Shown here piece by piece: positions 3,004-22,629 of a stretch of 22,629 nucleotides of DNA. The stretch covers positions 1 to 22,629 of the IMG/VR virus record IMGVR_UViG_3300037963_002500; one strand, given 5' to 3'. This DNA is from a virus. Each line of letters starts with the position of its first letter. Position 1 is the stretch's first letter. The notes below the pieces were generated by a model. It was not told the DNA's origin. It made no database searches and was given only the letters and a program-made list of their open reading frames with translations. The position numbers and the translations under genes were made by a program.

Positions 3004-4938
3004 ATGTCAGAAATCAAAACTTTTCTGGAAACTGCGAAAGGCGGTAAAATCTTGCGTAGTCTTTTACAATATCTACTAGTCGAAGATATTACAGAAGAGT
3101 TTGAAAATGCAAAATTATCCGATTCAATCAATAAAACATTTGAAATGTTAAATTCTGGTAGTTTAGATAAAAATGTTGAAGATATTTTAAACGAAGGTAT
3201 ATTCAAAGGCAAGAAAGATGAAGTTCTTTCTCGATTAAATTCACTAAAAGAAGCGTTTCTCTCTAAAGGAACAGGAACTGCCTCAAGAACAAAAGAGTTT
3301 AACGACAAAATTAAACCAAAAATTACAAAATTAAGAGAACTTTCGAAAAAATTAAGAGAAAATAAGGATAATGAAGCCATATTTTCTAAAATAAAAGGTG
3401 AATCAGAAGAGTTAGTTGTTGAACTTAACGAAGAAATAGAAAAATTTACTGAAAAATTCGGAAGAGAAGGCGGATTTAGAGATACTCCTAAGATTAAAGA
3501 GTTAATGGATGCTACAAAAAAGACAATTTCTGAATTTCAAGAGTTATTTTTAGCAAAAGATGTTTCTTCTTCGGCTACTTACTATGATTCTATACTTCAA
3601 CAAGATATTTCTTTCGTTTTAGAGAGAGATATTGAGGCCTTTACTTCAGATGACGTTGAAAATTACATCACAGCAGTAAATAATGCTGTCGGAAAGGCTT
3701 CAACAGGTAAATTTAGACCATTATACATAGACCATGAAGAAGAAGGAGTAGTAATTAACTCAAGTTTTCCAAAAAGACTCTATAAAGGTAAAAGAGCAAC
3801 ACTAGTAAAGCCTCTAAAGTTCTTAATTGACAGCGATTTTGGTCAAGAATGGTGGAAACAATGGTCTAGAGGCCAAATTCGTAAAGGAGTTATTACCGCA
3901 TCAGAAATTAGAGAAAGAATTGTTAAGCAGTTGTTTTATGGTGGTTTAACTTTTAGAGAACATTTTAATTTTAGAGCAGGTAGCGATACTGATAGAAAGA
4001 GCAGAAATAAAGAAATTGTAAGAGACAATGAAAAATTAGACATAGTTGAAGAAATAGATGAGGCGGGTAACAAGACTAAACGACTTAGATTAGACGATAC
4101 TTTAAATGATACAATTAAAAGAGCAAGTGATAATGCAGACTCCTTAGAAAAGATATTTAGTTCATTTTATACAGAAGTATTAGGTGAAACTTACAACCCA
4201 ATAGTAAATCACAACAAATTACTTGTTAAATTAATTGAAAAATACAATCAACCCGTTGAAAAGTTTCAGAATTTCCTTAAAAAGGATTATAGCGAACTAA
4301 TTGATAAACTAATTAGAGAAGTTCGAGCAGATAAATCAAAATTAGGAACAGTCATTAGGATTGAAAATGTAGATTTACCAAAAGGTCTTGATTATGACAA
4401 AAAAGAAAATGTTTTTATTGATGATGAAGACGATATTCTCACTTTAGAAGAGGTAAGAGAGATATATAAAGGTGATGAATTAGCCACAATTAATCAATAT
4501 ATAGAAAATGTAAATACACCTATGGAAGAACCTGATACTTTCTTTGATTTCTTAAATAGCAAAGAAGATATTGAAGCATATTTCAATAAAATTGCAGAAA
4601 ATCAACTAATTAGTCCAAATGTAGACAATTTACTAGGTGTTTTGTTTGAATTAAGCGAAATGGCTGAAAGAGAAGGCAATTATGAGGTATTAGAGGAAGA
4701 AATTCAAGCAATTATGACCAATAAAGCCTTCGATTCTAACGAAAAAAGGGAACAAATTGAGAGAATTGAGAGGGCTATTGTTGATAAATTAAAGAATTAT
4801 AGTAGGTTAATTAAGAGAGGATTTGCCCAAAAAGCAAAGGATTTCATAGAAAATCACCAGAATTATACCGCAAGTGCCGATGTAAGAGGGAAACTTTTAA
4901 GGCAATTGGAAGAACAGAACGTAATTAGGAGGGAATGA
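3004..4938 (+). CDS. Large Lys/Glu-rich helical protein, 644 aa
   Basis: The start ATG 3004 follows GGAGATTG with normal spacing. The N-terminus is MSEIKTFLETAKGGKIL, not a clear tag, though SEIKTFLE resembles the hydrophobic/acidic pattern. Residues about 30-190 are probable coiled coil. A more ordered middle region (about 190-330) contains SRGQIRKGVITASEIRERI and aromatic-rich FGQEWWKQW, and the C-terminal third is again acidic and helical. There are no ATPase, nuclease, peptidase or transmembrane motifs. It is one of three proteins of this style in the window, together about 2,570 residues. Internal-virion, scaffold or head-associated roles are possible. I do not recognise the family. Confidence 0.85.
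   Translation: MSEIKTFLETAKGGKILRSLLQYLLVEDITEEFENAKLSDSINKTFEMLNSGSLDKNVEDILNEGIFKGKKDEVLSRLNSLKEAFLSKGTGTASRTKEFNDKIKPKITKLRELSKKLRENKDNEAIFSKIKGESEELVVELNEEIEKFTEKFGREGGFRDTPKIKELMDATKKTISEFQELFLAKDVSSSATYYDSILQQDISFVLERDIEAFTSDDVENYITAVNNAVGKASTGKFRPLYIDHEEEGVVINSSFPKRLYKGKRATLVKPLKFLIDSDFGQEWWKQWSRGQIRKGVITASEIRERIVKQLFYGGLTFREHFNFRAGSDTDRKSRNKEIVRDNEKLDIVEEIDEAGNKTKRLRLDDTLNDTIKRASDNADSLEKIFSSFYTEVLGETYNPIVNHNKLLVKLIEKYNQPVEKFQNFLKKDYSELIDKLIREVRADKSKLGTVIRIENVDLPKGLDYDKKENVFIDDEDDILTLEEVREIYKGDELATINQYIENVNTPMEEPDTFFDFLNSKEDIEAYFNKIAENQLISPNVDNLLGVLFELSEMAEREGNYEVLEEEIQAIMTNKAFDSNEKREQIERIERAIVDKLKNYSRLIKRGFAQKAKDFIENHQNYTASADVRGKLLRQLEEQNVIRRE
4927..4934 (+). promoter_or_regulatory. 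Shine-Dalgarno site deciding the start at 4941
   Basis: AGGAGGGA abuts ATG 4935 directly (zero spacing) but lies 6 bases before the in-frame ATG 4941, so 4941 is the more likely initiator. Confidence 0.7.
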
Positions 4939-4940
4939 GT

Positions 4941-7850
4941 ATGTCTGATATTATTAAAGCACCACTAAAAGGAAAACCTTTAGGCATTCCCGAAGAATTA
5001 CTTACTGAAGTTTTCAATGCAATACCTGAAAGCGAACATAATGTTTTTAAAGAATTGTTATTAGAAATATCTAGAGAAACAAAGCAATTTGACGAAAATA
5101 TGTCAAGAATCGAGAAGAAAAGAAAAAAGAAAGAAATAAAAAATAAAATTGAAAGTTTCTTTTCAGAAGTAGAGTCAAGAGCAGGTAAACCAAATGAAGC
5201 CTTTAGAGAAAAAATTAAACAAGTTCAAGAAAAATTCAAAGAAGACGCTGATGAAACAAGAAAAAAGTTTAGCGACGAAAGAAGTAAAATCAGAAAACCT
5301 AGTGCTAATATTGAAGATAAAGAAGTCAGAAGAAAAAGGGAAGAATCATATAGGCAAAAAATCCAAGCAATAAATACAAAAAGAGATTCCGAACTTCAAG
5401 AGTTAGCAAGACAAAGAGATGCAGATGTAGAAAAATTAGAAAGAGAACTTACTGCAAGTGTAGAGTCTATTGAAATAGATAGAGCATTAGTCGGTAAATT
5501 GGCTAACAAGTTCTTTACTGTAAAAGTAGATAAATTAGAGAATCTAATAAATAAAATTAAAATAGAAAGAGATGGAGAGTCATATCCTAACAAAGTATTT
5601 ATTAACTTAGATGCAGACAGTCTAGACAAATATGACTTTACTTTTACCAATGTAGAGTCTGTCGATATTCCAAAACTTAAAGAATTAAAAAAGACTTCTG
5701 AAAAGAAAGCACACATTCAACTTATTATTGATGCGGCTAAGAAAAAGGAAAAAATTCCTACGAAGAAGTTCGTAGGATTTGGTATAGATTCAGATGAACT
5801 GATTGCAGGGTTTAATTTAACAAAGTCAAATGAAAGAGAAGCAATTTATAAGTTCTGGAAAGAAATCTTAAAAGAAGAACAAAAATTCATAAATGCTGCT
5901 GAAACTTTTTGTCAAGAATTAGAAAACTTAAAGGGTATAGTAAAATCTAAAGAGATAACTGATTTTATGAAAAAGTATTTCACAGAAGATAATAAATTAA
6001 AAACAAACGAAATATTTTACTTAATGCCATTCCCTTCACAACTTAAAAGAATCCCAGAACCTTTAGGTATTTTGCTTAACATTATTGCATATGTAGAAAA
6101 ATTCTATGAAGAAGTAGAGGTTTCATTTGAAGAAGGAGATTCTGATGAACTGCAAGGTTTTATTTCAGATTATGCTGCTTATGTTCCATCAGATGAAAGA
6201 GGTGGAGGTGGAGGAACTAAAGCCTCTTTTGATGTTTACAAGCCAAACTTGCTTGAAGAATTAAATTCTGATTCAAAGGGCGAATTGAAAAATATTGAAG
6301 AAGATTTAGATACAATAGACCCCCTACTACTATATGATATGGTAGTAAATGGAACTATCGCTTTAGTTAAAAGAGAAATCACAGAATTTAACGAAGAATT
6401 AGATGAATTTGTGGATTCTGATTCATTTGATTATATTAATTCTGTATTGGGTGAAGCGAGTTATAAAGATGCTGTTCTCGATGATGATGACTTTGAAACA
6501 TTACAGGATTTAGTAGATGCTTTAGAAGATACTTTTGCAATTGAAGGAGATGCCTTTGTTTTACCTATCTTTATGCTTTACGATGAAAAGTTTGAAAGAG
6601 CATATGATAGAAATAAAAAAGAAGGAGAAATAGAATTTGAATATACTCCTAATGTTAGAGAAGATGATGACGGGAATCCAATAGGTATGTTTTCTGCTAA
6701 AGGAGAAAGAACACCAATTCAACTAAAAAGTGCAAGTGCTAAAAACACCGATAATAAAATTCAAGAATTCTTAAAAGATGTTGTTTCTTTGGTTGATATT
6801 GATTTCCAGTTCGCAATTAAAGAAGGTAAGGCTGCACGAAAAACTTTGGGTTATCAGCCCGATAGAACAATTTCTTCTTGGGCAAGAGATAGAGGTAGAG
6901 TAAGTATTGATAGATTAGAACAAAGTCAAGTTTCTACCATAAGAGGAAAAAAAGTTGAATCCAGCATTGAAAAAGACCTTAAAGATATTATGACTCCTTT
7001 CTTAACTGCAATTTCAGAATATTATTACAAACCGTTCTTTAGGAATAGAGATATTGGAACAAAGCCAAAATATCTTTCTAATAATACTGGAAGAGGAATT
7101 GTTCTTTTAGCCAACGAACTAGAAGTAGATACTATTCTTGGTTCATCCTACAAAAAACTTCTAAGAGGAACGCAATCACAAAGAAGACAATTAAGACCAG
7201 ACTTATTCAAAGACATTCTAGCATTCTTAAACCTTACTAGAAACCCATCAAATTTAGAACAATTAATAAATATGGGAGAGGGCGCAGTTAGAGGACTTAC
7301 TAAAATTTTCCCAAAAACAGAAGAAAGAAATAGAAATCACATCGCAAAAATTATTTCATCTTTAGCGGATAAAATGAAAACTAAAGACACCGTAAACAGA
7401 AAAACAATCAAAGGCAAAACAATTAAAGAAAGAGCCAAAGAATACGATAAGCAAGTTTCACAAGGATTAGAAATGCCCCTCTTCGCCTTACCATATTGGA
7501 TTACTGTAAATAAGAGAAGTTTTACCACAAAGTATCATGATAAAGTATTTGCCAAATTAGAAAACTTCTTCAATAGAGGACAAAATGTTCCGCTTGTTCT
7601 GACAAAGATGCTAATGGCTCACGATGAAATTAGAAAAATGTTGGGCAAAGATGTAGTATATGGATTCTATAATCTAGAATACAATGACATTGATGAGTTT
7701 ATTCTCAAAATACACGATGAGAATAAATTAGACTTAAGCCACATGGAAGTTACTGAAATCGTAAAGTCATACGATTCACATGAGAATATCTCAAAGGAAT
7801 ATGGAATTAGTTCGGACGAAGTATATTTAATCAAGGCAAACTTTAGGTGA
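4941..7850 (+). CDS. Very large Lys/Glu-rich protein with Gly5 hinge, 969 aa
   Basis: The start at ATG 4941 is set by spacing from AGGAGGGA. The N-terminus MSMSDIIKAPLKG is a possible tag variant with Met in place of Trp. Residues about 45-185 are a long charged coiled coil (KRKKKEIKNKIES, RDADVEKLERELT). Five glycines (421-425) divide the chain in two. The C-terminal half is less coiled, with a basic region (about 700-800) and a final stretch around EIVKSYDSHENISKEYG that could be a helix-turn-helix. There is no catalytic motif, signal peptide or membrane segment. The stop lies inside the Shine-Dalgarno site of the acetyltransferase-like gene. Its role is unknown; its position before the terminase suggests a virion or packaging-related protein. 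Confidence 0.85.
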   Translation: MSDIIKAPLKGKPLGIPEELLTEVFNAIPESEHNVFKELLLEISRETKQFDENMSRIEKKRKKKEIKNKIESFFSEVESRAGKPNEAFREKIKQVQEKFKEDADETRKKFSDERSKIRKPSANIEDKEVRRKREESYRQKIQAINTKRDSELQELARQRDADVEKLERELTASVESIEIDRALVGKLANKFFTVKVDKLENLINKIKIERDGESYPNKVFINLDADSLDKYDFTFTNVESVDIPKLKELKKTSEKKAHIQLIIDAAKKKEKIPTKKFVGFGIDSDELIAGFNLTKSNEREAIYKFWKEILKEEQKFINAAETFCQELENLKGIVKSKEITDFMKKYFTEDNKLKTNEIFYLMPFPSQLKRIPEPLGILLNIIAYVEKFYEEVEVSFEEGDSDELQGFISDYAAYVPSDERGGGGGTKASFDVYKPNLLEELNSDSKGELKNIEEDLDTIDPLLLYDMVVNGTIALVKREITEFNEELDEFVDSDSFDYINSVLGEASYKDAVLDDDDFETLQDLVDALEDTFAIEGDAFVLPIFMLYDEKFERAYDRNKKEGEIEFEYTPNVREDDDGNPIGMFSAKGERTPIQLKSASAKNTDNKIQEFLKDVVSLVDIDFQFAIKEGKAARKTLGYQPDRTISSWARDRGRVSIDRLEQSQVSTIRGKKVESSIEKDLKDIMTPFLTAISEYYYKPFFRNRDIGTKPKYLSNNTGRGIVLLANELEVDTILGSSYKKLLRGTQSQRRQLRPDLFKDILAFLNLTRNPSNLEQLINMGEGAVRGLTKIFPKTEERNRNHIAKIISSLADKMKTKDTVNRKTIKGKTIKERAKEYDKQVSQGLEMPLFALPYWITVNKRSFTTKYHDKVFAKLENFFNRGQNVPLVLTKMLMAHDEIRKMLGKDVVYGFYNLEYNDIDEFILKIHDENKLDLSHMEVTEIVKSYDSHENISKEYGISSDEVYLIKANFR

Positions 7851-7854
7851 TACT

Positions 7855-8484
7855 ATGGCAGAAAGATTTTCTGAAGATGACATTGAATTTGAAGAAATGT
7901 CAGAAGATGAAGCAGTTGCTACATTCGTTAAAGATGGCTATGATAAATATGTTAAAAGAAGTACGAGATATGGAAGTAATCTTTCTCCAGATTCAGAATG
8001 GGCAAAAAGCCCAGCAAAAATGTTTGTTGCATTTTATGAAGATACTCCAGTTGGTGTGATGGGATTTTCAGAATACAAGGGAGTTCTTTTAGGTGCAGGT
8101 ATTCATATTAGAGAGGGATATAGAAAAGAAGATGGCTATGGTGGTCTTTTCAGTATTTTAGTTAAAAAGATTCTTTCTGAGAAAGGAAGTAAGACTCTTT
8201 ATATTAATGTAGCAAAAGAAGGATTAGGTGCTGCATTTAGAGCAAAGGGATTCAAAGATATGGAAAAGGATGAACTTCCTCAAGATATACAAGAAGACCT
8301 TCAGGGAACTAAGTATTCAGACCAAGTTCAAAAGTGGATGAAATTAAAGGCTAAAGATATGGCAGTAGATAAGCCGATGCCACAGATTACTACTCGTAAA
8401 AAAATTAAAACAGAAAGAACAAAGCATAGGACTTATTCTGGTAAAAACTTCCCCGAATGGAAAAAGATTCTTAGGGGTGATTAG
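7855..8484 (+). CDS. GNAT-like N-acetyltransferase with tag-like C-terminus, 209 aa
   Basis: GGTGAT (7846-7851), which contains the upstream stop, precedes ATG 7855 by three bases. Residues about 60-150 fit a GNAT fold: a beta pair (MFVAFYEDTPVGVMGFSEY), a strand (LLGAGIHIREGYR), the acetyl-CoA loop region (R..DGYGGLFSIL), a helix, then LYINVAKEGLGAAFRAKGF, typical of the last strand-helix-strand. The acetyl-CoA loop is atypical (RKEDGYGG instead of Q/RxxGxG/A), so activity is uncertain. The last residues are EWKKILRGD, matching the W-x-x-I-L-K/R pattern that neighbours carry at the N-terminus. A substrate among the lysine-rich neighbours is possible but inferred. It lies directly upstream of the large terminase. 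Confidence 0.7.
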   Translation: MAERFSEDDIEFEEMSEDEAVATFVKDGYDKYVKRSTRYGSNLSPDSEWAKSPAKMFVAFYEDTPVGVMGFSEYKGVLLGAGIHIREGYRKEDGYGGLFSILVKKILSEKGSKTLYINVAKEGLGAAFRAKGFKDMEKDELPQDIQEDLQGTKYSDQVQKWMKLKAKDMAVDKPMPQITTRKKIKTERTKHRTYSGKNFPEWKKILRGD

Positions 8485-9915
8485 ATGGAAATGGAAGAAT
8501 TTAACTTAGAGCATCAGATGGATATGGAGTTATCCAAGAACTCTTTTCCATATTTTTTTCAACACGTTTTGGGTTTTGACTTTCCATCATATATACAAGA
8601 ATGGTATGGTTTAATGAATGAAACACAAAGAACTGTTATTATTTGTTCAAGAGACCACGGAAAATCTGTTTTTATGCATTCATGGGTTGTTTGGAATTTA
8701 GTATTCAGACCTCCGCCATATCAAATGCTTTACATCTCATCTAACCAAAAACAGACAATGGTTCACATGAGAGATATTGATAAGATGTTTCAGCACCCTT
8801 TACTTAAAAAATTCAAACCCTCTAGAGGTTGGGCTATTGGTAATATTACTTTAACAAATGGAAATCAAATTCTTGAGCGTTCCGTTGGTTCACAGATTCG
8901 TGGTTTGCACCCACAAGAAATTATTATTGACGACCCTTTGAAAGAATTCAGCGTAAGTGGTATTCAAAAAGTAACTGATTGGTTTTACGGGGATATGATT
9001 CCTACACTTCACCATACTGCATCTTTGAGAGTTATAGGAACTCCGTTCAGTTATACGGATATTTACCGACAACTTGAAGAAAATGCTGCATATACTGTTA
9101 GAACCTATCCTTGTCTAAATGCACTTAATGAACCCCTTTGGCCTGACCGTTGGGATTATGATGCTTTAATGTCAAGAAAGGCTGAAATTGGTTCACTTAA
9201 ATTCACAAGAGAATATATGTGTGTTCCTATTTCAACAGGAACTTCTCTCTTTAATCCAGAATATTTAGACCTTGCAAAGAATAAAAACTTAGTTTTGAAA
9301 CCTAGCAGAAGAGAAGGATATAAGTATTATGTAGGAGTAGACCCAGCAATTTCAACAGATGGAGATTACAATGTAATTACTGTATTAGAAGTAGATGAAG
9401 ATGACAATAAAAACATTGTATATATTGACCGTTCTAAAAACGTAGAGTTTAGAGAAAACATTAATAAAGTTAAACTCATTGGTAAAATCTTTAATCCAGA
9501 AGTAATCTTATTTGAAACAAATACATTCGCAAAATCATTTACTCAAGAACTTCGTAACGTCGCAGATTTAAATGTTCATGACTTTAACACTACTAGAAAG
9601 AAAAAAGAAGAGATTATCTTAAATTTGCAAATGACTTTAGAAAATCAGAAGATGAATTTTCCTTATGGTAATGAAGAAAGCCGACGTGTTACTTCTGCTT
9701 TAGTAGAAGAACTGTCTATGTTTGCTATTACAGAACGTGGAAGATTTGAGGGAATCGGGGCGCATGACGACATGGTGATGAGCCTCGCATTAGCCAATTC
9801 AGCGACGTTTCAGATGACGGATAACTTCATACTCTTGGATGACATGGAGATATTCGGGAGTTCTAAACCGTCTAACAATCGAGTTAAAATGCCTTTCTTG
9901 GGGTTGAATTTTTAA
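8485..9915 (+). CDS. terL: Terminase large subunit (ATPase and nuclease)
   Basis: This is the DNA-packaging motor, which pumps viral DNA through the portal and cuts concatemers. The ATPase domain shows a Walker A variant SRDHGKS (residues 55-61) and Walker B IIIDD (146-150). The RNase H-like nuclease domain shows VGVDPA (D286), an acidic residue in ILFETN (E344) and GAHDDMVMS (D428/D429), the usual three acidic positions. Its length, 476 aa, is normal for the family. Start ATG 8485 follows GGTGAT (8476-8481). The stop overlaps the next start as TAATG. The last about 150 bases are GC-richer than their surroundings. This is the most certain identification in the window. Confidence 0.97.
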   Translation: MEMEEFNLEHQMDMELSKNSFPYFFQHVLGFDFPSYIQEWYGLMNETQRTVIICSRDHGKSVFMHSWVVWNLVFRPPPYQMLYISSNQKQTMVHMRDIDKMFQHPLLKKFKPSRGWAIGNITLTNGNQILERSVGSQIRGLHPQEIIIDDPLKEFSVSGIQKVTDWFYGDMIPTLHHTASLRVIGTPFSYTDIYRQLEENAAYTVRTYPCLNALNEPLWPDRWDYDALMSRKAEIGSLKFTREYMCVPISTGTSLFNPEYLDLAKNKNLVLKPSRREGYKYYVGVDPAISTDGDYNVITVLEVDEDDNKNIVYIDRSKNVEFRENINKVKLIGKIFNPEVILFETNTFAKSFTQELRNVADLNVHDFNTTRKKKEEIILNLQMTLENQKMNFPYGNEESRRVTSALVEELSMFAITERGRFEGIGAHDDMVMSLALANSATFQMTDNFILLDDMEIFGSSKPSNNRVKMPFLGLNF

Positions 9916-13391: not shown

Positions 13392-15029
13392 ATGGTGGAA
13401 CAGAAAAGAAGATTCTCCATTACTAACTTGTTTAGGCGTTCTACTCCCAAACCTGCCGATAGACAAATTTTTAACATTGGTATTCAAGAAAGAAGAAATC
13501 AACAGATGATGACCGCACCAATCATTTATTCGATGGTGCAACAGTCTGTTATTGTAAGAACCTGTATTACTCAATTAAAACAAGAAATCTTTAGAAGAGG
13601 ATATGTTTGGGAAAAGTCTTATGAAGGGCTTTGTAAAAGTTGTGGCAAAAAACATAAGAAACCCGTTACAGAATGTTCTCGATGCGGTTCAACAGAATTA
13701 AGAGTTCCAGACCCAAAACAATTAGAATACATTGAAAAGTTCTTAGATAGATACGTCAATAAATCTGAACAGTTATTTATTGATGTTCTTCGAGAACTTG
13801 AAGATGATTTGAATACAATGGATGATGCATACATTGTAATGGTAAAAGAATATTTCTTAGACGGAAACGGTAAAATAAGAATGCATCGAGTAAAAGAATT
13901 ATATCGGGGCGACCCAGTAACTATGTATATTTATGCTGATGAGAATGGCGTAAGAGGAACAAAGGGTTTTACTTGCGTGAATCATCGTTCAATTATTGCT
14001 ACTGAACCACACGAAACTTGTGAAGTTTGTGGCAGTAATTTATTTCCTATTCATTATGTAAATAGAGTTGGAGGTGAAGACCAATACTTCTTAGAGGGAG
14101 AAGTTCTTCACTTTAGCAAATACAGTCCATCTCGTCTTTACGGATTATCACCTATTTTAACTCTCTATAATCATATTATGACATTGATTGCTATGGAGAA
14201 TTACGTCAATTCATCTTATACAAAGAGCAGAATGCCGAGAGGTTTGTTGGCAGTACAGACAAGAAACATGGAGTCTATGCGCTCTTTTTGGAGGTCTGTT
14301 AAAGAAAAGATGGAACAAGACCCGCACTTCATTCCTGTCATGGGAATCGAGGCTGAGAACGGTAAAGGGGCAGTTGAATGGATTAAGTTCATGGATAGTC
14401 TGAAAGAGATGGACTACGTTTCGGTAAAGGATGATTTGAGAGATAGAATTTCAGCATTCTATGGTGTCAGTAAAGTATTTATGGCTGATAATACTACAAG
14501 TGGTGGGTTAAACAACGAAGGTATGCAAATTCTTGTAACAAATAGAGCAGTTCAAATGGCTCAAAATGTTTACAATAATTATGTATTTCCGTTTTTGGTC
14601 AAACAATTTGGTATTACTGATTGGGAATTAAAATTACCACCAAGCGAAGAAGAAGATGAAATTGCAGTATTGCGTAAAAGAGAAATCGAAGTCAATATTG
14701 CAGCATCAATTAAGAATCTAGGATTTGAAATAGATATGGATGAAGATGGGAATTTTACCTATACTAAACCAGAACCCGAAGAACCCGAACAAACAGAAGA
14801 AGGTGAAGGTGTGGAAAAAGACCCATTAGCAGGTTCTAATTTAGACCAAAGAGATATTGATGAGCAAAATAGACAATTTGCAGAAGGTGGAGGAAAACCT
14901 CAAGAAAATCCACCTGCTACAAGAAATAAGCCATCAATGAGTACAGGCCCAGATAAAAGATTACAAGGATTACCTGAAGATGCAGGGAATCAAAACGTAG
15001 ATAGAAGAAGTGAAAGGAGAGTTGGTTAA
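13392..15029 (+). CDS. Portal protein with two zinc-ribbon-like insertions, 545 aa
   Basis: The portal forms the ring through which DNA enters the head and on which the terminase docks. The region LYGLSPILTLYNHIMTLIA, the long helix around residues 275-330, and ISAFYGVSKVFMADNTTSGG followed by NRAVQMAQNVYNNYVFPFL are typical of portal proteins. Two insertions near the N-terminal part carry metal-site patterns: C81-x2-C84 with C95-x2-C98, and C195-x2-H198 with C210-x2-C213. The C-terminal about 100 residues are acidic, Pro/Gln-rich and probably disordered. Start ATG 13392 follows GGGAGG. There is no tag. The stretch at 14260-14450 is GC-richer than the rest. Confidence 0.9.
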   Translation: MVEQKRRFSITNLFRRSTPKPADRQIFNIGIQERRNQQMMTAPIIYSMVQQSVIVRTCITQLKQEIFRRGYVWEKSYEGLCKSCGKKHKKPVTECSRCGSTELRVPDPKQLEYIEKFLDRYVNKSEQLFIDVLRELEDDLNTMDDAYIVMVKEYFLDGNGKIRMHRVKELYRGDPVTMYIYADENGVRGTKGFTCVNHRSIIATEPHETCEVCGSNLFPIHYVNRVGGEDQYFLEGEVLHFSKYSPSRLYGLSPILTLYNHIMTLIAMENYVNSSYTKSRMPRGLLAVQTRNMESMRSFWRSVKEKMEQDPHFIPVMGIEAENGKGAVEWIKFMDSLKEMDYVSVKDDLRDRISAFYGVSKVFMADNTTSGGLNNEGMQILVTNRAVQMAQNVYNNYVFPFLVKQFGITDWELKLPPSEEEDEIAVLRKREIEVNIAASIKNLGFEIDMDEDGNFTYTKPEPEEPEQTEEGEGVEKDPLAGSNLDQRDIDEQNRQFAEGGGKPQENPPATRNKPSMSTGPDKRLQGLPEDAGNQNVDRRSERRVG

Positions 15030-15508: not shown

Positions 15509-18388
15509 GTGTCTTATTCTGAAATTCTTAGAAAGAGAACGGATGATGACCAGCGACAGCAAGATGAAAGACAGTTAGAACAAGCCTCTAAAGAACAACA
15601 AGATAGAGTTAAAACTGAGTTTAGAGAAATGAAAAATCGTTTCGCTAGACTTCAAGAATTATATAATGACCTCAAAAAAGAATTTTTAAATTCTGTTAAG
15701 TTTACTTTAGGTAGAAGAAATAAAATTGAGAGTTTCTTTCGAGATGTAGGAATAGAAGAAGTAATGTCAAAAAAATCATTTGATTATCTTTTGTCTGAAA
15801 TATTCTATATGAAGAATAAAGATGCAGACCACTATACAAATCAATTAGCCAGTCAACTCGGTAATGTTGCAACTTACAGTCCAGATGGCAGTTTTATTCT
15901 CGAAGGAACTGATGAAACTACTATTAGTGTTGGAACTTTGGGAGAAAACCTAAAAGAATTAGCAAATAGCGAAATTGACGGAGTTCCTTTTGAAAAAGCA
16001 ATTAGTTATATTTATAGAAAAACATTTAATCAACCAATAATTAGAAGTAAAAAAGAATTAGGTGAAAGGAAGCAAAACTTAAAAGATATGGGTAAAATTA
16101 TTGCTGATATTGGAAAAACAAAAAGAACTGGTAGAAGATTACCTAAAGATTATAAAGACCTTATTACTGGTAGAAAAACAAAAGGAACATTAAGAGCAGT
16201 TAAAGGAGATACATATGCTCATAAAACAGAAAAAGACAAGGATGGCAGACCCGAAGAAATTTCTGAAGAAGAATATAAAAATTTAAATGAAGAACAACAA
16301 CAAGAATACAAGAGAAAAGATTATCTTGAAGGAGATGTTGCAGAATTAGATGATAAGTTTGCAATATCTACTGCTAAGAAATTAGTAGAACAAATTGAAA
16401 AGAACTTTGCTCCCACAACTTACAAAGGATTTGAAGAATTTAATCTCCTTGAAACATTACCAGAAAATCCTGAAGAGTTTGTCCGAAAGAAGTTTAATAA
16501 TCTAAGAGATACTTTAGAACTTGAAATTCAAAGGTTTTTGTTAAATAAAATAGAACAATCTAAAACAATGAAAAAAGAGAGAAAGTCAGAAATAGAAACT
16601 AGGTTAAGTGTTTTTACTGATAAATATGATATAGATAATGTAGGCACAGATATAGATTCCTTTATTAATCAAATTGATTTTGATGCTGTTATTGAACAAA
16701 GTAATAAAAATAGAGAGGCTTGGGAAAATCCAAAAAGTAACGCAGAAGGAAAACAAGTTAAAACTGCAATTAAAAACTATGAGAAAATTTTAGACTTAAT
16801 GTCTGAAAGCGATGACTTTCCACTTAAAACCTTTGGAGATAAAGGAACTGAGCCTAATTTTAAACCTTTAGAAAAATCAAATATTAAAATCATAGTAGAA
16901 GTCTTACAAGAACCATTCGTTGAAGTATTTGAAAAATTTACAAAAAAGAACAAATTCAATAGAGAAATGAATAAATACGCAAAAGACCCTTCTGCTAAGG
17001 CTACTGTTTTATTAGAAAAAGGTAAGCCATTTAAAAAATTACACGTTCCTTTTATTAATAAGATGGGTGGAGAAGAATTAATGGAAAGGCTAAGAAATTT
17101 TAGTTTAGAAGATATGGAAGAATTGGAAGATGATATATCTAAAGATATTGATGTTTTTGATGCAGCGAAAGAAATGAGAGAAGCATTTAAAAAAGCATTC
17201 AATGATAATTCTGACAAATTATTCGAAGAAATGAAAAAGACCATTGATGCGTTTCTGGAAGAAAAGAGAAAAGAATTTCTTGACAGATTTAAAGGAAAAG
17301 GCGAAAGAGAAGAAGAAAGAGAGGGGAGAAGAATCAAAATTACTCCTAAACCTTACACACAGAATCAAATTAGACAAAATTTAATGTCTTTTAAGAATAA
17401 TCTATATGATGATAAAACAGGAAACAAAATAGAAAAACTCATAAACAAAACACTTGAACTAAAAGCGTTTAGGAATTTCGATGCAGGAAAGAAAGGAGAA
17501 AAAAATACCATAAGTATTTTTAAAGAAAATATAGAAGACGCTCTTTCACAATACAAAAAATATGAACTTTCTGAAAATGAAAAAATTGAGAAGGCTAGAA
17601 AACTTCTAAAAGATATGTTTTCTCAACCTAATGATGATGACCCTGAATTTAAACAAAACTCAGAAATTGCAATTAAAGTTAGAGAATACGAAGAAAAATT
17701 CATTGGAGTATTAGAAGCATACAATGAATTAATTGTAAACAACGATGTCGCTGAAATTGCTACTGTTAAAGATACAATCAAACAATTAAGTATTTTTGTC
17801 AAAGACCCTAGAGAAATTCAACTTAAACCATTAAAGGATGGAATGTTCACTTATGATAAAGAAAAAGTTTTAAGAAAGATTATTACAAAGATTAATGCAA
17901 TTACTGATACTACGGGTTTAATCGGAAGAAAAGAAGAGTTAATTGATAGACAGTTTTCACAAAAAGTATTTTATAGAATGTTTAACAAAGATAACTTTGA
18001 AGAACAGATAATTAATCATTTAGATAGTAAGGTATTCACAACAGAAATATTTCCATCTCTTAAACCAACTGCCGATGCTTTAGTTCGACAAGCCAAAGAA
18101 TTAGTAAAATATGATATTCAAGAGCGCATTCCTCTAGGCCCACTAAGGGAAGGAGAAGAACGAGATTTAAACTTAAATGAGCAAATAAAGGGTGTAATTC
18201 GTAAAGCAATTAAAAGAACTAAAGAAGCAATTGCAAAACTAGAGAATAAAAATGCTGAAGATATAGAAAGACTATCAAAAGAAAAACATATAGAAATGGA
18301 AATAAGAAGAGTTATTTCTTCAAGAAGTAGAACTATTACTCAATTTGTAACAGATATTGAACAACTAGAAAAATACATAGGAGAATGA
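15509..18388 (+). CDS. Very large Lys/Glu-rich helical protein, GTG start, 959 aa
   Basis: GTG 15509 opens MSYSEILRKR, a tag variant with Tyr for Trp, preceded by GAGGCGAT. The chain is dominated by charged helices with few prolines or cysteines. Residues about 15-60 and much of 290-960 are likely coiled coil, and a region around 200-260 is rich in Lys/Thr/Gly (KTKRTGRRLPKDYKDL). The C-terminus ends in TDIEQLEKYIGE. No enzyme motif or transmembrane segment is visible. In composition it resembles the proteins at 3004 and 4941, though I see no clear alignment. Candidates are a tape-measure, scaffold or internal-virion protein. It lacks the hydrophobic segments usual in tape measures. Confidence 0.85.
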   Translation: MSYSEILRKRTDDDQRQQDERQLEQASKEQQDRVKTEFREMKNRFARLQELYNDLKKEFLNSVKFTLGRRNKIESFFRDVGIEEVMSKKSFDYLLSEIFYMKNKDADHYTNQLASQLGNVATYSPDGSFILEGTDETTISVGTLGENLKELANSEIDGVPFEKAISYIYRKTFNQPIIRSKKELGERKQNLKDMGKIIADIGKTKRTGRRLPKDYKDLITGRKTKGTLRAVKGDTYAHKTEKDKDGRPEEISEEEYKNLNEEQQQEYKRKDYLEGDVAELDDKFAISTAKKLVEQIEKNFAPTTYKGFEEFNLLETLPENPEEFVRKKFNNLRDTLELEIQRFLLNKIEQSKTMKKERKSEIETRLSVFTDKYDIDNVGTDIDSFINQIDFDAVIEQSNKNREAWENPKSNAEGKQVKTAIKNYEKILDLMSESDDFPLKTFGDKGTEPNFKPLEKSNIKIIVEVLQEPFVEVFEKFTKKNKFNREMNKYAKDPSAKATVLLEKGKPFKKLHVPFINKMGGEELMERLRNFSLEDMEELEDDISKDIDVFDAAKEMREAFKKAFNDNSDKLFEEMKKTIDAFLEEKRKEFLDRFKGKGEREEEREGRRIKITPKPYTQNQIRQNLMSFKNNLYDDKTGNKIEKLINKTLELKAFRNFDAGKKGEKNTISIFKENIEDALSQYKKYELSENEKIEKARKLLKDMFSQPNDDDPEFKQNSEIAIKVREYEEKFIGVLEAYNELIVNNDVAEIATVKDTIKQLSIFVKDPREIQLKPLKDGMFTYDKEKVLRKIITKINAITDTTGLIGRKEELIDRQFSQKVFYRMFNKDNFEEQIINHLDSKVFTTEIFPSLKPTADALVRQAKELVKYDIQERIPLGPLREGEERDLNLNEQIKGVIRKAIKRTKEAIAKLENKNAEDIERLSKEKHIEMEIRRVISSRSRTITQFVTDIEQLEKYIGE

Positions 18389-18756: not shown

Positions 18757-19019
18757 TGTGGTGGAATATTATTAAAATAAGCGATGAGGAAAGAAGAAAG
18801 ATAATTGATAGATATAGAAGAAAGAAAACGACTTCTAATGTTCCATCAAAGGCAAAAAATGTAACAAGAAAAGCATTTAATTGTGAAATGTGTGGACAAA
18901 GAAAATCTATTCGTGCAATTAGATATTACCCTCCTATGAAAAAATTATGCAATTCTTGTGCTAGACAAAATTATGGGCCTCACTTTAAACAGATTGGAGA
19001 AAAAATAGAGGATGATTGA
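18756..19019 (+). CDS. Tagged zinc-ribbon protein, 87 aa
   Basis: It begins MWWNIIKISDE (tag with IIK), and its ATG overlaps the previous stop. A basic N-terminal helix (residues 10-24) is followed by a zinc ribbon: C43-x2-C46 and C65-x2-C68, separated by a beta-rich segment RKSIRAIRYYPPMKKL. A domain of this kind commonly mediates nucleic-acid or protein contacts. Its partner is unknown. It is one of at least five small or embedded metal-binding modules in the window. Confidence 0.85.
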   Translation: MWWNIIKISDEERRKIIDRYRRKKTTSNVPSKAKNVTRKAFNCEMCGQRKSIRAIRYYPPMKKLCNSCARQNYGPHFKQIGEKIEDD

Positions 19020-19020
19020 G

Positions 19021-19260
19021 ATGACAGAAGATAAAGTAAGTGATGATATTTTGGCTATATTGAAAGCCTTAACAGATAAAATTGAAACATTGGAAAGAAC
19101 AGTTTATGCAAAAGATAATTTGCTAATGAAGTCTGGTCTTGTTGTTTCTGAAAGCCCTACTCCAACAATGGATAATAAGATTGCTTCACCTGTTGGTGAT
19201 GTAGCAAACATGGAATGGTCTGAAATTCACAAAATGGTAGAAAAAGTAGGAGGTCAGTAA
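19021..19260 (+). CDS. Small acidic protein with tag-like C-terminus, 79 aa
   Basis: GAGGATGAT at 19009-19016 gives normal spacing to ATG 19021. The in-frame ATG at 19012 lies inside that site and is unlikely. The first about 35 residues are an amphipathic helix (DDILAILKALTDKIETLERT). A linker with SESPTPTMDNK follows. The C-terminus reads MEWSEIHKMVEKVGGQ, in which W66-S-E-I-H-K resembles the N-terminal tags of neighbours. Function unknown. Confidence 0.78.
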   Translation: MTEDKVSDDILAILKALTDKIETLERTVYAKDNLLMKSGLVVSESPTPTMDNKIASPVGDVANMEWSEIHKMVEKVGGQ

Positions 19261-19261
19261 T

Positions 19262-19918
19262 ATGCCCGAAAGAGTAACAAAAAAAGAAAGAATGGTTACT
19301 TTAGCCATTGAAAAAGCAAGAAAGACAATTGAAACATTAAGGGAATCTACACAAGTTATTCCTGTTGATACAGAAGTCGAAGTTCAAAAGATTAAGCGAC
19401 CTAAAGTTCAAGATGCTTCAAAGATTACAAATCAAACTCAAGAAAAAGAAGGTTATGGGTTAGCAGGTGAATCTTTAAAGAAGTCATTTGGGGAATCAAC
19501 ATTAAGTGGCCCAAATATAAGAGAAGCCAACAGTTTATCTCCTAGATTTATAGGTTCAAATAGTTCTATTAATTTAACAAGAAAAGAAATGAATAAGGTT
19601 TTTGAAGAATTTGTAAAGAAAAATCCAAAGGCTACTGCATTTGACATAGCATATGAAAAAGAGTATATTGATGATTTCATCGCACTTGCAACGAAGATGT
19701 TCCCTAAGAATGTGGGTAGAACAATTAGCAATATCGGAGAGAGCCAATTTAAGAAAGAAGACGATATATCGGATAGCAAAGAATATATGATAGACGAAAT
19801 AGAAGAAAAAATTGGCAGAATTAAGTCAAGTTTAGATACTTCTGTAAGTAAAGAAACTTTGCTTAAAGTTTTGACGGCTATTGAAGACGCAGAAGATATT
19901 ATTATGCACCATCCTTAA
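19262..19918 (+). CDS. Protein of unknown function, 218 aa
   Basis: ATG 19262 follows GGAGGT (19249-19254). The N-terminal about 90 residues are basic and probably flexible. A polar Ser/Asn-rich stretch (LSPRFIGSNSSINLTR) precedes a helical C-terminal domain (about 115-218) with KEMNKVFEEFVKKNP and LLKVLTAIEDAEDIIMHHP. No tag, metal site or catalytic motif is visible, and the family is not recognised. It lies between small tagged genes and the ligase. Bases 19670-19790 are somewhat GC-richer than the rest. Confidence 0.8.
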   Translation: MPERVTKKERMVTLAIEKARKTIETLRESTQVIPVDTEVEVQKIKRPKVQDASKITNQTQEKEGYGLAGESLKKSFGESTLSGPNIREANSLSPRFIGSNSSINLTRKEMNKVFEEFVKKNPKATAFDIAYEKEYIDDFIALATKMFPKNVGRTISNIGESQFKKEDDISDSKEYMIDEIEEKIGRIKSSLDTSVSKETLLKVLTAIEDAEDIIMHHP

Positions 19919-19954: not shown

Positions 19955-22468
19955 ATGCCTCTTCTTATTGAAAAGGATAAGGACTCTTCTGAAAAGATTA
20001 TACGTCTTTTTGAGAAAACAAGGGTTGCTTATCTATCTGCTCGCACCGACCCCAAAGAATATGGAAATAGGTGGCGTAAAGCAATTGATGACATTAGAGA
20101 ACTCTATGAAGAACTTAATGAATTTAGCAAGGAATTAAAACAATTCATACAAGAAGATGAATTAGAAAACAAAGAAGCAAAAGACCCGACAAGTAATATC
20201 GCTGAAAAGATTTACAATGGCATTAAAGAAATGCGTTTCGGTTCTGAATTAATTGAAGACCCTTTTGCTAAAAAATTCAAAGGTGATGTTCTTGAAGCAT
20301 TACTTGAATCTCCAGAAACTATGATTAAATTTGTCCACTATGCTTTAAGGGCTGACAATAAAGCCCTACCAAAAGAGATTTGGAGCATTAAAGATATGCA
20401 ACCCGACACGATAACGGAGGGTCTGACGGGGCTTGACATAGATGAAGAGGATATAGCCCTCTATATTATCGAACAGTATGGGGATGAAAAAGACTCAAAG
20501 AAGGTTGAAAGCAAAGTTAAATCAGCCTTAGAGATGTTAGAGACTTTATTCTTCTCCAAGTATAGTGAAGAAGAATTCGATGAATTGAAAGACATCGAAG
20601 GTATTGAGAAGGCTGAAAAATCCAAAGACGAAAAGGCTGAGTCGGACTTTTTAGTTCCAAACAAACCTATGTATCGAATCTTTGAAATTGATGATATGAA
20701 GGAATTAAAGGGTTTTAGTGGAGAATATGTCATACAAGAAAAGTATGATGGTATGAGAATACAATTACATAAGATAGATGATAACGTAAAAGTATTCTCA
20801 TACAATGGAAACAATATTTCAGATAAATGTCAAGAACAAGTCAAAGAATTAAAGAAAAAGAAATACGGAGATTGTATTCTTGATGCAGAATTAATTCTAT
20901 TTGATGGCGATGAAGCCTTGCATCGGGCCGATACAATCGCACACGTTTTTAAAGGTAAATATCCTGATGCAAAAGTAAGAGCGCACGTTTTTGATATTAT
21001 GCGACATAATGAACAAAATCTTGTTGAAGAAGAACTAAAGGATAGAATTACAATTTTATTTAACAATTACGCATCACATTCCACAGAAGCAATAGAGTTC
21101 CCTTCAAAGAAAGATACTCGAACTGCTGATAATTTAAAAGATGTTGAAGAGTATTCAAAAGAAATTATGGAGATGCCAACATCAGAAGGAGTAGTAATCA
21201 AAGATTCTACATCAACATACTTTATAGGAACAAAAAAGAATCCTAAATGGATTAAATGGAAGAAGTTTGTTGATTTAGATTTGATTGTATTAGATAAGAA
21301 GACTACAAAATCTAATCTTAATTCTTATACTTTGGGAGCAGGGCCAGCAGAAGGAGAAGGCAAATTCTTTACTGAAATAGAAGGAAAAACTTATATGAAT
21401 GTAGGAAAGGCTCTCAATACAAAAATAGAAGTAGATGTTGGAGATATTATTCGAGTTAAGGTTGATGAAGTCAAAAAGAACGGAGATAGATATACTTTGT
21501 TTTCCGCAAAGGTTATTGAAGTTCCCGAAGTCGAATATCCTGATAAACTAGTAACATTAGAAATGCTTTCTCAAGATACTAAGAAGTCATTAAATTATGA
21601 TGTTAAGGCATTAGAAAAGGGAATTAGAATTACAGACCACATACACGGTGAAGCAGATATTATTGTAAAATCAGACTTAGATGGTTTTACAATCTACGGC
21701 TTTGATGAAAGCAACCTAATGTCTAAGAATGCCATAATTGATATGGATATGTGGAAATCAAAAGTCGAAGAGATTATGAAGACTAAGCAATCTAAATTGA
21801 CTCAAATTGTTTTTAATTATCTTAAGGACATGGGTTCAAAAGAACCAAAAGAAATTCACAATTTCTTAACAAAGAAACATAGTTCAGTTTATGAGGATAT
21901 TCTTGAAGGAAAAATGTCAAAGGTTAAGGATTGGTTTGAAAATAGAGATGGTATTGGCTACGATACAAAAACCAAAAAACTCTTTGCTGAAGAGGATAAA
22001 ATTATTAAAGAACCTGAGTTACTAAAAGCATACAAAACTCCAGAAAAATATAGAGAAGGTGAGTTTAAAGTATATCTTAGAAAAGATGATAACTTAAACA
22101 TCGCTATGAAGTTAGCAGACGAAACAATTAATTGGTTTGTGAAACTAGAAAGTGATGACAACATATTTGATTTGTTTGGTAAAGCAGGTAAATATCCAGC
22201 AGAAGTAGCAAAGACTTCTTCAAGAGAAAAAGTAGTTGATTCTGGTTCTGTGAAATTAGGTGTTCAAAAAGAAGGTTATCATGAATATTTCTTAAATGGT
22301 AATAAATTCCAAACTAAAATTCATTTTAGGGTTGTAGAGAGTAAAGGCGACAAAATGTGGATTGCTTGGACTGGTTATAAACAAGAACCTGCTGACGACG
22401 ATGAGGACAAGGGATTGTGGAATATCTATGAAGATAGGTTTAACTCCTTGACCATACCGACTGAATAA
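19955..22468 (+). CDS. ATP-dependent DNA ligase with extra N- and C-terminal domains, 837 aa
   Basis: The enzyme seals nicks in double-stranded DNA through a ligase-AMP intermediate. The nucleotidyltransferase motifs are in order: motif I EKYDGMR with nucleophile K263, motif III LDAELILFDG (E312), motif IIIa VFDIM (F346), motif IV EGVVIKD (E411-K416) and motif V KWIKWKK (431-437). An OB-fold follows (about 440-545). The N-terminal about 245 residues are helical and not clearly the usual ligase DNA-binding domain. The C-terminal about 290 residues include a winged-helix-like segment (KLTQIVFNYLKDMG...) and a last about 130 residues that weakly recall the LigD phosphoesterase fold, without certainty. 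GGTGAT precedes ATG 19955. Such a gene is unusual between structural genes. Confidence 0.92.
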   Translation: MPLLIEKDKDSSEKIIRLFEKTRVAYLSARTDPKEYGNRWRKAIDDIRELYEELNEFSKELKQFIQEDELENKEAKDPTSNIAEKIYNGIKEMRFGSELIEDPFAKKFKGDVLEALLESPETMIKFVHYALRADNKALPKEIWSIKDMQPDTITEGLTGLDIDEEDIALYIIEQYGDEKDSKKVESKVKSALEMLETLFFSKYSEEEFDELKDIEGIEKAEKSKDEKAESDFLVPNKPMYRIFEIDDMKELKGFSGEYVIQEKYDGMRIQLHKIDDNVKVFSYNGNNISDKCQEQVKELKKKKYGDCILDAELILFDGDEALHRADTIAHVFKGKYPDAKVRAHVFDIMRHNEQNLVEEELKDRITILFNNYASHSTEAIEFPSKKDTRTADNLKDVEEYSKEIMEMPTSEGVVIKDSTSTYFIGTKKNPKWIKWKKFVDLDLIVLDKKTTKSNLNSYTLGAGPAEGEGKFFTEIEGKTYMNVGKALNTKIEVDVGDIIRVKVDEVKKNGDRYTLFSAKVIEVPEVEYPDKLVTLEMLSQDTKKSLNYDVKALEKGIRITDHIHGEADIIVKSDLDGFTIYGFDESNLMSKNAIIDMDMWKSKVEEIMKTKQSKLTQIVFNYLKDMGSKEPKEIHNFLTKKHSSVYEDILEGKMSKVKDWFENRDGIGYDTKTKKLFAEEDKIIKEPELLKAYKTPEKYREGEFKVYLRKDDNLNIAMKLADETINWFVKLESDDNIFDLFGKAGKYPAEVAKTSSREKVVDSGSVKLGVQKEGYHEYFLNGNKFQTKIHFRVVESKGDKMWIAWTGYKQEPADDDEDKGLWNIYEDRFNSLTIPTE

Positions 22469-22487: not shown

Positions 22488-22514
22488 CAACTCAGATAAA
22501 CTGATTTGAACGAC

Positions 22515-22629
22515 ATGAGCATCAGTATAAGTTCATCCAGAAATGATGATTTTATCATCATTAAAAGTGATGAACTGATGATTGGTGGTTATGCTTCGAT
22601 TGAAATTGTAGATAAGCAAAATGATTTAA
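22515..22629 (+). CDS. Start of a probable prohead maturation protease (XkdF-like), 3' cut by window edge
   Basis: The frame is open from ATG 22515 to the window end (38 codons). The product begins MSISISSSRNDD and continues IKSDELMIGGYASIEIVDKQ, then NDL. The (I/V)xGxAS(I/V)E(I/V)VDKQ(G/N)D(L/I) core is the opening strand-turn pattern I know from XkdF and related phage prohead serine proteases, which normally lie just before the major capsid gene. The catalytic residues lie beyond the window, so the assignment rests on this N-terminal pattern and on gene order. No Shine-Dalgarno site precedes it, unlike nearly all other genes here. Confidence 0.6.
   Translation, partial: MSISISSSRNDDFIIIKSDELMIGGYASIEIVDKQNDL
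22542..22562 (+). repeat. Perfect inverted repeat near the start of the protease gene
   Basis: AATGATGAT, a TTT loop, then ATCATCATT form a 9-base-pair perfect hairpin or operator-like palindrome 27 bases after the ATG. It encodes N-D-D-F-I-I-I. It may be coincidental codon use, or an RNA hairpin or protein site controlling expression. Confidence 0.4.

Follow-up and report, generated by a model that had tools for sequence, protein, structure and literature searches.

ATP-dependent DNA ligases of the LIG1 type (PF01068), known from archaea and eukaryotes, possess a nucleotidyltransferase core and an OB fold with motifs I, III, IV and V. The T4 ligase gp30 is a replicative enzyme, which is not the product of a head-operon gene and is not known to have a phosphoesterase-like tail. 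The parallel between T4 and the present case is that deficiency in the T4 or the host ligase reduced DNA-full heads, as reported in an excerpt of PMC10893049. In bacterial LigD a 3'-phosphoesterase (PF13298) is fused to an ATP-dependent ligase; the catalytic residues of the phosphoesterase, as far as an excerpt of PMC8656161 gives them, are His42, His48 and Asp50, which bind Mn (P. aeruginosa numbering), together with Arg52, His84 and Tyr88. The DNA ligase of magroviruses is listed in the replication block in PMC10160649, and the profiles of the Aoguangviridae (PMC10768690) and of the Apasviridae both list an ATP-dependent DNA ligase under replication. In the literature searched, which included these sources, neither a ligase of the head operon nor a phosphoesterase-like tail on it was found to be described, and the finding may be new in print.

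The ligase described here (the head ligase) shares with the LIG1-type enzymes the core, the OB fold and the four motifs, while its N-terminus is unrecognisable by sequence, the R-x-D-K of motif VI was not found, and it has a C-terminal tail of 289 aa and a location in the head operon. With LigD it has in common the fusion of the two activities' folds and, in the structure model, the phosphoesterase fold of residues 701-811 (3p43, 3p4h, 3n9b, 3n9d, 5dmp and 2lj6). It differs from LigD in that equivalents of His42, His48, Asp50 and His84 are absent, sequence-profile similarity is lacking, the barrel follows the OB fold and a winged-helix-like region, and no Ku was found. PMC10160649 places the magrovirus DNA ligase in the replication block, a description to which the head-operon ligase adds a qualification.

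The window, that is, the whole stretch of 22,629 nucleotides that was analysed, belongs to an 81.5-kb virus record (G000) and contains the gene as a single ORF with an ATG start (Table 1). Homologues were collected from the best 80 of 339 and the best 80 of 301 stretches, from two more and, for others, from further records. At least 171 homologous ORFs were obtained, at least 111 of which were distinct by DNA identity; 9 of the 111 were partial, short or split, and 102 were complete. Since these homologues exist and purifying selection was seen in every domain (pN/pS 0.06-0.44 against five relatives), the ORF is not due to chance. When 50,697 phage records were searched with the ligase by tblastn, only one match was obtained, in the core, to the ANMV-1 virus, and BFVD gave one strong match (A0A516LT18, 48% identity), the remaining rows listed (50 of 773) having E values of 0.01 or worse. 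Two Maricaulis genome-bin contigs (L086, L087) encode the tail of the head ligase and are probably mis-binned virus contigs.

On the basis of its TerL, portal, protease, capsid protein, ligases and PolB, together with ORFs that to the eye resemble PCNA, clamp loader, TFB and chaperonin, the virus is read as a magrovirus, perhaps near the Aoguangviridae, and its host is probably to be sought among marine archaea. The family B polymerase is present in two pieces in the record (Pfam); the ICTV profile of the Aoguangviridae describes a gene set overlapping that of this virus, with PolB-NTD/CTD in a figure legend (PMC10768690).

Table 1. Features of the head-operon ligase, its surroundings and the second ligase (window coordinates unless the record is named).
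Feature	Coordinates	Strand	Basis
N-terminal tags	358, 1528, 2293, 9915, 11725, 12020, 12271, 12537, 12916, 18756; record 27065, 28096		
C-terminal tags	19012 (82-aa protein), 22506 (protease)		
Terminase large subunit (TerL)	8485..9915	+	Terminase_6C E 1.2e-6
Portal protein	13392..15029	+	Phage_portal E 1.3e-11
82-aa protein, C-terminal W..IHK tag	19012..19260	+	tag scan
218-aa protein, conserved immediate upstream neighbour	19262..19918	+	102/103 with room
ATP-dependent DNA ligase of the head operon, 837 aa	19955..22468	+	ORF and at least 111 distinct homologues
Residues 1-234, N-terminal and helical, perhaps in part a diverged ligase DNA-binding domain	19955..20656	+	model, alignment
Residues 235-437, nucleotidyltransferase core	20657..21265	+	Pfam, motifs, VIA-align Z about 20 to archaeal ligases
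Motif I lysine K263	20741-20743	+	
Residues 438-548, OB fold and linker; canonical R-x-D-K motif VI not found	21266..21598	+	model, motif scan
Residues 549-611, beta hairpin and helix	21599..21787	+	pLDDT about 60 (low model confidence)
Residues 612-697, winged-helix-like region	21788..22045	+	IclR 5tjj Z 6.8
Residues 698-811, LigD-phosphoesterase-like beta barrel without catalytic His/His/Asp	22046..22387	+	tail model, motif scan
Residues 812-837, C-terminal extension	22388..22465	+	alignment of 63 tails
Prohead protease gene start (record 22506-23705), immediate downstream neighbour	22506..22629	+	Peptidase_S78 E 4.6e-9
SU10-type capsid protein	record 23717-25051		Pfam
Other ligase of the same virus, 505 aa	record (G000) 63298-64815	-	Pfam DNA_ligase_A_N, _M, _C all match

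The earlier note had placed the ligase next to the protease and among structural genes, and this was borne out, the genes of TerL, portal, a Peptidase_S78 protease and an SU10-type capsid protein lying nearby. Among the matches listed, the prohead protease was the next gene downstream in 107 of the 110 distinct ORFs with room for it, 106 of them within -40 to 59 bases, and the homologue of the 218-aa protein lay directly upstream in 102 of 103. In the same ligase-anchored matches a capsid gene followed downstream (82/82 with room) and a portal gene preceded (38/38 with room). A second sample was anchored on the capsid protein (best 80 of 472 relatives, biased to the loci nearest the HVTV-1 capsid protein); 28 of the 80 loci had less than 3.8 kb upstream and were left out, and the division into magrovirus-type and haloviral loci followed similarity to the HVTV-1 capsid protein rather than sample data. 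Of the loci that remained, all 35 of magrovirus type had the ligase upstream, six of them in a form identical to one in the ligase-anchored set, and it was found at this place in none of the 17 haloviral loci, which possess a related capsid protein. Its place is thus kept in both samples, the divergent clade included. The operon position suggests co-expression at best, and not an interaction with terminase or portal.

Three late proteins of the window, of 644, 971 and 959 aa (3004-4938, 4935-7850 and 15509-18388), gave no significant Pfam match. In the virus record itself (L083), a run of four X residues (N bases) occurs near the start of the protease gene, from about position 22629 of the record onward, at the window end. 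A halovirus protein of 1313 aa annotated as 'zeta toxin' (L213 6416-10357, HVTV-1 gene 115) is encoded upstream of the protease, at a distance of a few genes; to the eye, the protein ends in an ADP-ribosyltransferase-like part, which would recall the T4 head protein Alt.

The catalytic core is standard, as had been proposed: Pfam DNA_ligase_A_M matched residues 250-436 (E 9.6e-29, 101 bits), and motif I, K-x-D-G-x-R with the lysine that is adenylylated, was present in all 130 distinct proteins longer than 600 aa. The strict patterns of motifs III, IV and V were found in 124, 117 and 113 of these proteins, respectively, the exceptions being conservative (FD kept, EG..K kept, R for the first K of motif V, L for the second W), and an alignment of 43 relatives showed no variation at the key positions of motifs I, IV and V. 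In the motif scan the R-x-D-K of motif VI was found in 0 of 130 head ligases, in contrast to the R-x-R-x-D-K present in 17 of 17 replicative-type ligases; judged by eye, the acidic residue and the lysine of this motif may remain at 530-531. A dead ligase had been considered when some long relatives scored zero against a replicative-ligase profile, and was dropped when the motifs were seen in the alignment.

In the full-length model (pLDDT 74.5, pTM 0.34) the domains are confident but their mutual arrangement is not. VIA-align gave Z values of about 20 to the P. furiosus ligase 2cfm and to other ligases, and many rows against DNA ligases extended to model residue 540-543, in the OB fold, with an rmsd of about 10 or more, presumably because core and OB fold are placed differently in the model. 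The claim that about 245 N-terminal and 290 C-terminal residues are atypical stood in part: a convincing family match is lacking at both ends, but residues 438-542 form an ordinary OB domain, and the unusual tail is therefore 549-837.

Residues 1-205 had no convincing match in Pfam, PHROGs, NCBIfam or PDB sequences, a PDB profile search with the N-terminal region gave nothing under E 0.08, and the N-terminal DNA-binding domain PF04675 had no Pfam match in the head ligase. When the N-terminus was compared by hhalign with the first 200 columns of the replicative ligases, the score was 15.5 against up to 20.0 for shuffles, the match falling on a plausible motif. Foldseek in several cases aligned the model to archaeal ligases over about 600 columns, the N-terminal region included, at high rmsd, which suggests that part of the region may be a ligase DNA-binding domain that has diverged. 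In VIA-align most rows started no earlier than residue 215, and a few started at 155-162. Of 32 capsid-anchored proteins that were aligned, 14, those of the divergent clade, lack about residues 95-225, while core, OB fold, hairpin, winged helix and barrel are near-constant in length in the 32. The core is thus accompanied more constantly by the tail than by the N-terminal region.

Sequence searches failed with the tail: residues 549-837 had no convincing match in Pfam, PHROGs, NCBIfam or PDB sequences (best weak match 9.4e-4, in 2 of 63 tails). The match was obtained when the tail was folded alone, from 63 sequences (pLDDT 78.6, pTM 0.51). The top six VIA-align rows were all LigD-type phosphoesterases: 3p43 (Z 9.9, rmsd 2.7, 102 residues aligned), 3p4h (9.6, 2.2, 94), 3n9b (8.7, 3.3, 107), 3n9d (8.4, 3.1, 102), 5dmp (7.3, 2.9, 100) and 2lj6 (7.0, 3.5, 105). 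They cover the five distinct phosphoesterase sequences found in the PDB by profile, and the part matched is model residues 153-263, i.e. ligase residues 701-811. No different fold matched better, the next beta-rich row having a Z of 3.4. A Z below 8 may mean a common arrangement only, which applies to 5dmp, 2lj6 and the winged-helix rows, where residues 612-688 matched winged-helix proteins (IclR 5tjj at Z 6.8, others below 5). Foldseek was modest for the phosphoesterases (best E 3.6e-3, with lipocalins at ranks 5 and 7), and the fold call rests on the VIA-align ranking rather than on Foldseek E-values. In the model, then, residues 701-811 have the LigD phosphoesterase fold.

In a 996-aa relative and in two others, some 140-180 aa are inserted between the winged helix and the barrel, which marks a domain border there. 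D561, H564 and G565 of the hairpin and helix are invariant in the 63 tails, as are D818, G820, W822, I824 and D827 of the C-terminal extension. The barrel has its own G-N-K-F, T-K, W802 and Q810, present in all 63 aligned tails, although G-N-K-F is not conserved in the divergent clade. Two head ligases of 957 and 909 aa (L252, L255) have an extension past the barrel in which Pfam gave no family at E 0.05.

The likeness to the LigD phosphoesterase had been proposed with its hallmark residues left unconfirmed; the fold stood, but the residues were absent. In the motif scan none of the 133 tails had the signature H-x(4-8)-H-x-D, which all 18 LigD controls possess, and the E-D-H motif of His84 ([ED]DH) was present in 1 of 133 and 18 of 18, respectively. 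The positions aligned to the Mn ligands are R709 (or Y707), N713/N715 and N715/A717, rarely D or H; the strand register was set by hand, and neither of the two possible registers restores the ligands. On the corresponding strand of the 63 tails, R709 occurs in 62 (one X), N713 in 50 and N715 in 42, with V, S or A at 717. PF13298 gave no match in 17 tails nor, at E 1, in 19 records, and hhalign against the 18 LigD phosphoesterases scored 14.1 for the barrel and 20.1 for the tail, the best of 40 column shuffles reaching 20.0. Since the His/His/Asp signature is absent from all 133 tails, the barrel is probably not a working phosphoesterase; judging by its residues, it is probably catalytically dead, and the LigD fold has been reused here without its metal site. 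A bacterial NHEJ system (LigD with Ku) was considered and dropped, as neither Ku nor PF13298 was found in the 19 records.

As to function, the earlier suggestion of an action on packaged or incoming DNA is plausible, and repair coupled to packaging fits somewhat better than a virion-borne enzyme. We tentatively propose, as a real possibility rather than a probability, that the head ligase is a late-made sealer of nicks coupled to packaging. It would be produced together with the prohead and would close nicks or gaps in DNA that has been replicated, allowing the terminase motor to fill the head without being halted by strand damage. The winged helix and the dead phosphoesterase fold might serve as modules which bind DNA or read 3' ends, or alternatively as docking sites for a head protein. 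The fixed position between the portal region and the protease and capsid genes speaks for a role in packaging, as do the intact motif I, the second ligase of most large relatives and the lack of a terminal tag described below; the motif VI that was not found, the haloviral loci and the PolB-bearing records in which no other ligase was found speak against it. For T4, the excerpt of PMC10893049 also reports impaired DNA-full heads upon deficiency in endonuclease VII or topoisomerase II, and in vitro packaging of 500-bp single-nick substrates like un-nicked ones, nicked substrates of 100-200 bp being packaged worse. A nick therefore need not stop packaging, and since only the short nicked substrates were packaged poorly, the T4 parallel is supportive but not decisive.

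A wider reading, which we regard as rather unlikely as a whole, would make the ligase a core component of head morphogenesis in a large group of tailed viruses, probably of marine archaea, which mends DNA during packaging, uses a decayed LigD phosphoesterase as reader of nicks or 3' ends, and is retained even by members in which no second viral ligase was found. The locus ties the chemistry of DNA repair to the building of virus heads in a group whose metagenomic relatives number in the hundreds (339 stretches), and, if the packaging role is true, offers a one-gene test of whether nick sealing is a built-in packaging step.

Head proteins that are internal or ejected are often encoded close to portal and protease. 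It might be argued from this that the ligase is itself virion-borne, enclosed in the head and ejected with the genome, where it would repair nicks in the incoming DNA or circularise it, and the neighbouring protease and 82-aa protein carry a terminal tag which resembles in kind the T4 capsid targeting sequence, as described in an excerpt of PMC9026906. The tag, W-x-x-[ILV]-[ILHFV]-K (as in 'MSWKEILK'), was devised on this virus record after its sequence had been read, and was found there in 14 of the 54 ORFs on the forward (late) strand and in none of the 50 on the reverse strand, five antisense or minority-strand ORFs having been removed and three overlapping ones added by hand; shuffles of the late ORFs gave a mean of 0.10 and a maximum of 2 in 2000. 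When K or R was accepted as the last residue, 186 N-terminal and 170 C-terminal matches were counted per locus in 1789 ORFs of the ligase loci listed (182 and 152 distinct proteins), against 13 internal matches and 2.2 terminal ones expected. Proteins with the N-terminal tag are small, and strongly basic ones are more frequent among them (29%) than among untagged ORFs (3%); the tag was present in 0 of 361 haloviral ORFs. By analogy with T4, it is possibly a head-targeting signal. The ligase itself lacks it: among the matches listed, a terminal W-x-x-I-L-K tag was seen at neither end in any of the 111 ORFs, the 102 complete relatives included. The one match to the pattern in 36 capsid-anchored ligases (L261) lies near residue 18, in a conserved helix of an N-terminally short ORF, and by its position is not a terminal tag. 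Nothing thus points to the ligase entering the head by the tag route, and the lack of a tag found on many late proteins weakens the virion-borne reading, as does the fact that Ku (PF02735) was not found at E 1 in the 19 records, which may be fragments; we consider this reading doubtful. In the window a 209-aa protein (7855-8484), GNAT-like by eye without a Pfam match, ends in EWKKILRGD, a tag-like C-terminus.

The enzyme could also be a general replication and repair ligase, merely placed in the late operon, its place and function being unrelated, for which its standard core could be cited. Fifteen of 16 large relatives (large contigs chosen by hand from ligase-bearing loci) have, however, a further ligase frame of 505-518 aa, encoded in each of the 15 on the opposite strand. 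In this virus (G000) it is an ordinary three-domain ligase, so that the head ligase is not simply the replicative enzyme there. The relatives thus keep the head ligase in the head operon and, in those 15, the second ligase elsewhere, which upholds the view that the former does not sit with the replication genes. In this virus the two share the core family, but only the head ligase has the winged helix and the phosphoesterase-like tail. Ten further records had one ligase match in nine cases and two in one. In three PolB-bearing records of the divergent clade, which are possibly fragments (G097 and G098, 88-92 kb; G104, 64 kb, placed in the clade because it resembles L271), the ligase of the head operon was the only one found, and here it may simply serve replication, since no other ligase was found beside PolB. 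Considering that the place is kept in both samples, this divergent clade included, we find a general ligase improbable as an explanation for the group. One record of 184,733 bases (G005; L058, L191), about twice the usual size, contains two ligases of each kind, one of its head ligases being the 996-aa protein with an insert; it is probably two related genomes in one record.

The strict operon position and the strongly conserved tail residues, such as the near-invariant Y-H-E-Y of the barrel (132 of 133 tails), could also be those of a head-assembly factor, recruited as a structural or scaffold component with its ligase chemistry secondary. The catalytic motifs are kept in the 130 proteins with conservative exceptions only, which would not be expected if catalysis were dispensable, and this reading is very unlikely. 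An RNA ligase, mending for example tRNA cut by a host defence, is hardly credible: Pfam RNA_ligase exceeds its cut-off on the same ORF (29.2 vs 27 bits), but DNA_ligase_A_M scores far higher at 101 bits, a head operon is an odd place for tRNA repair, and the structure matches shown are DNA ligases.
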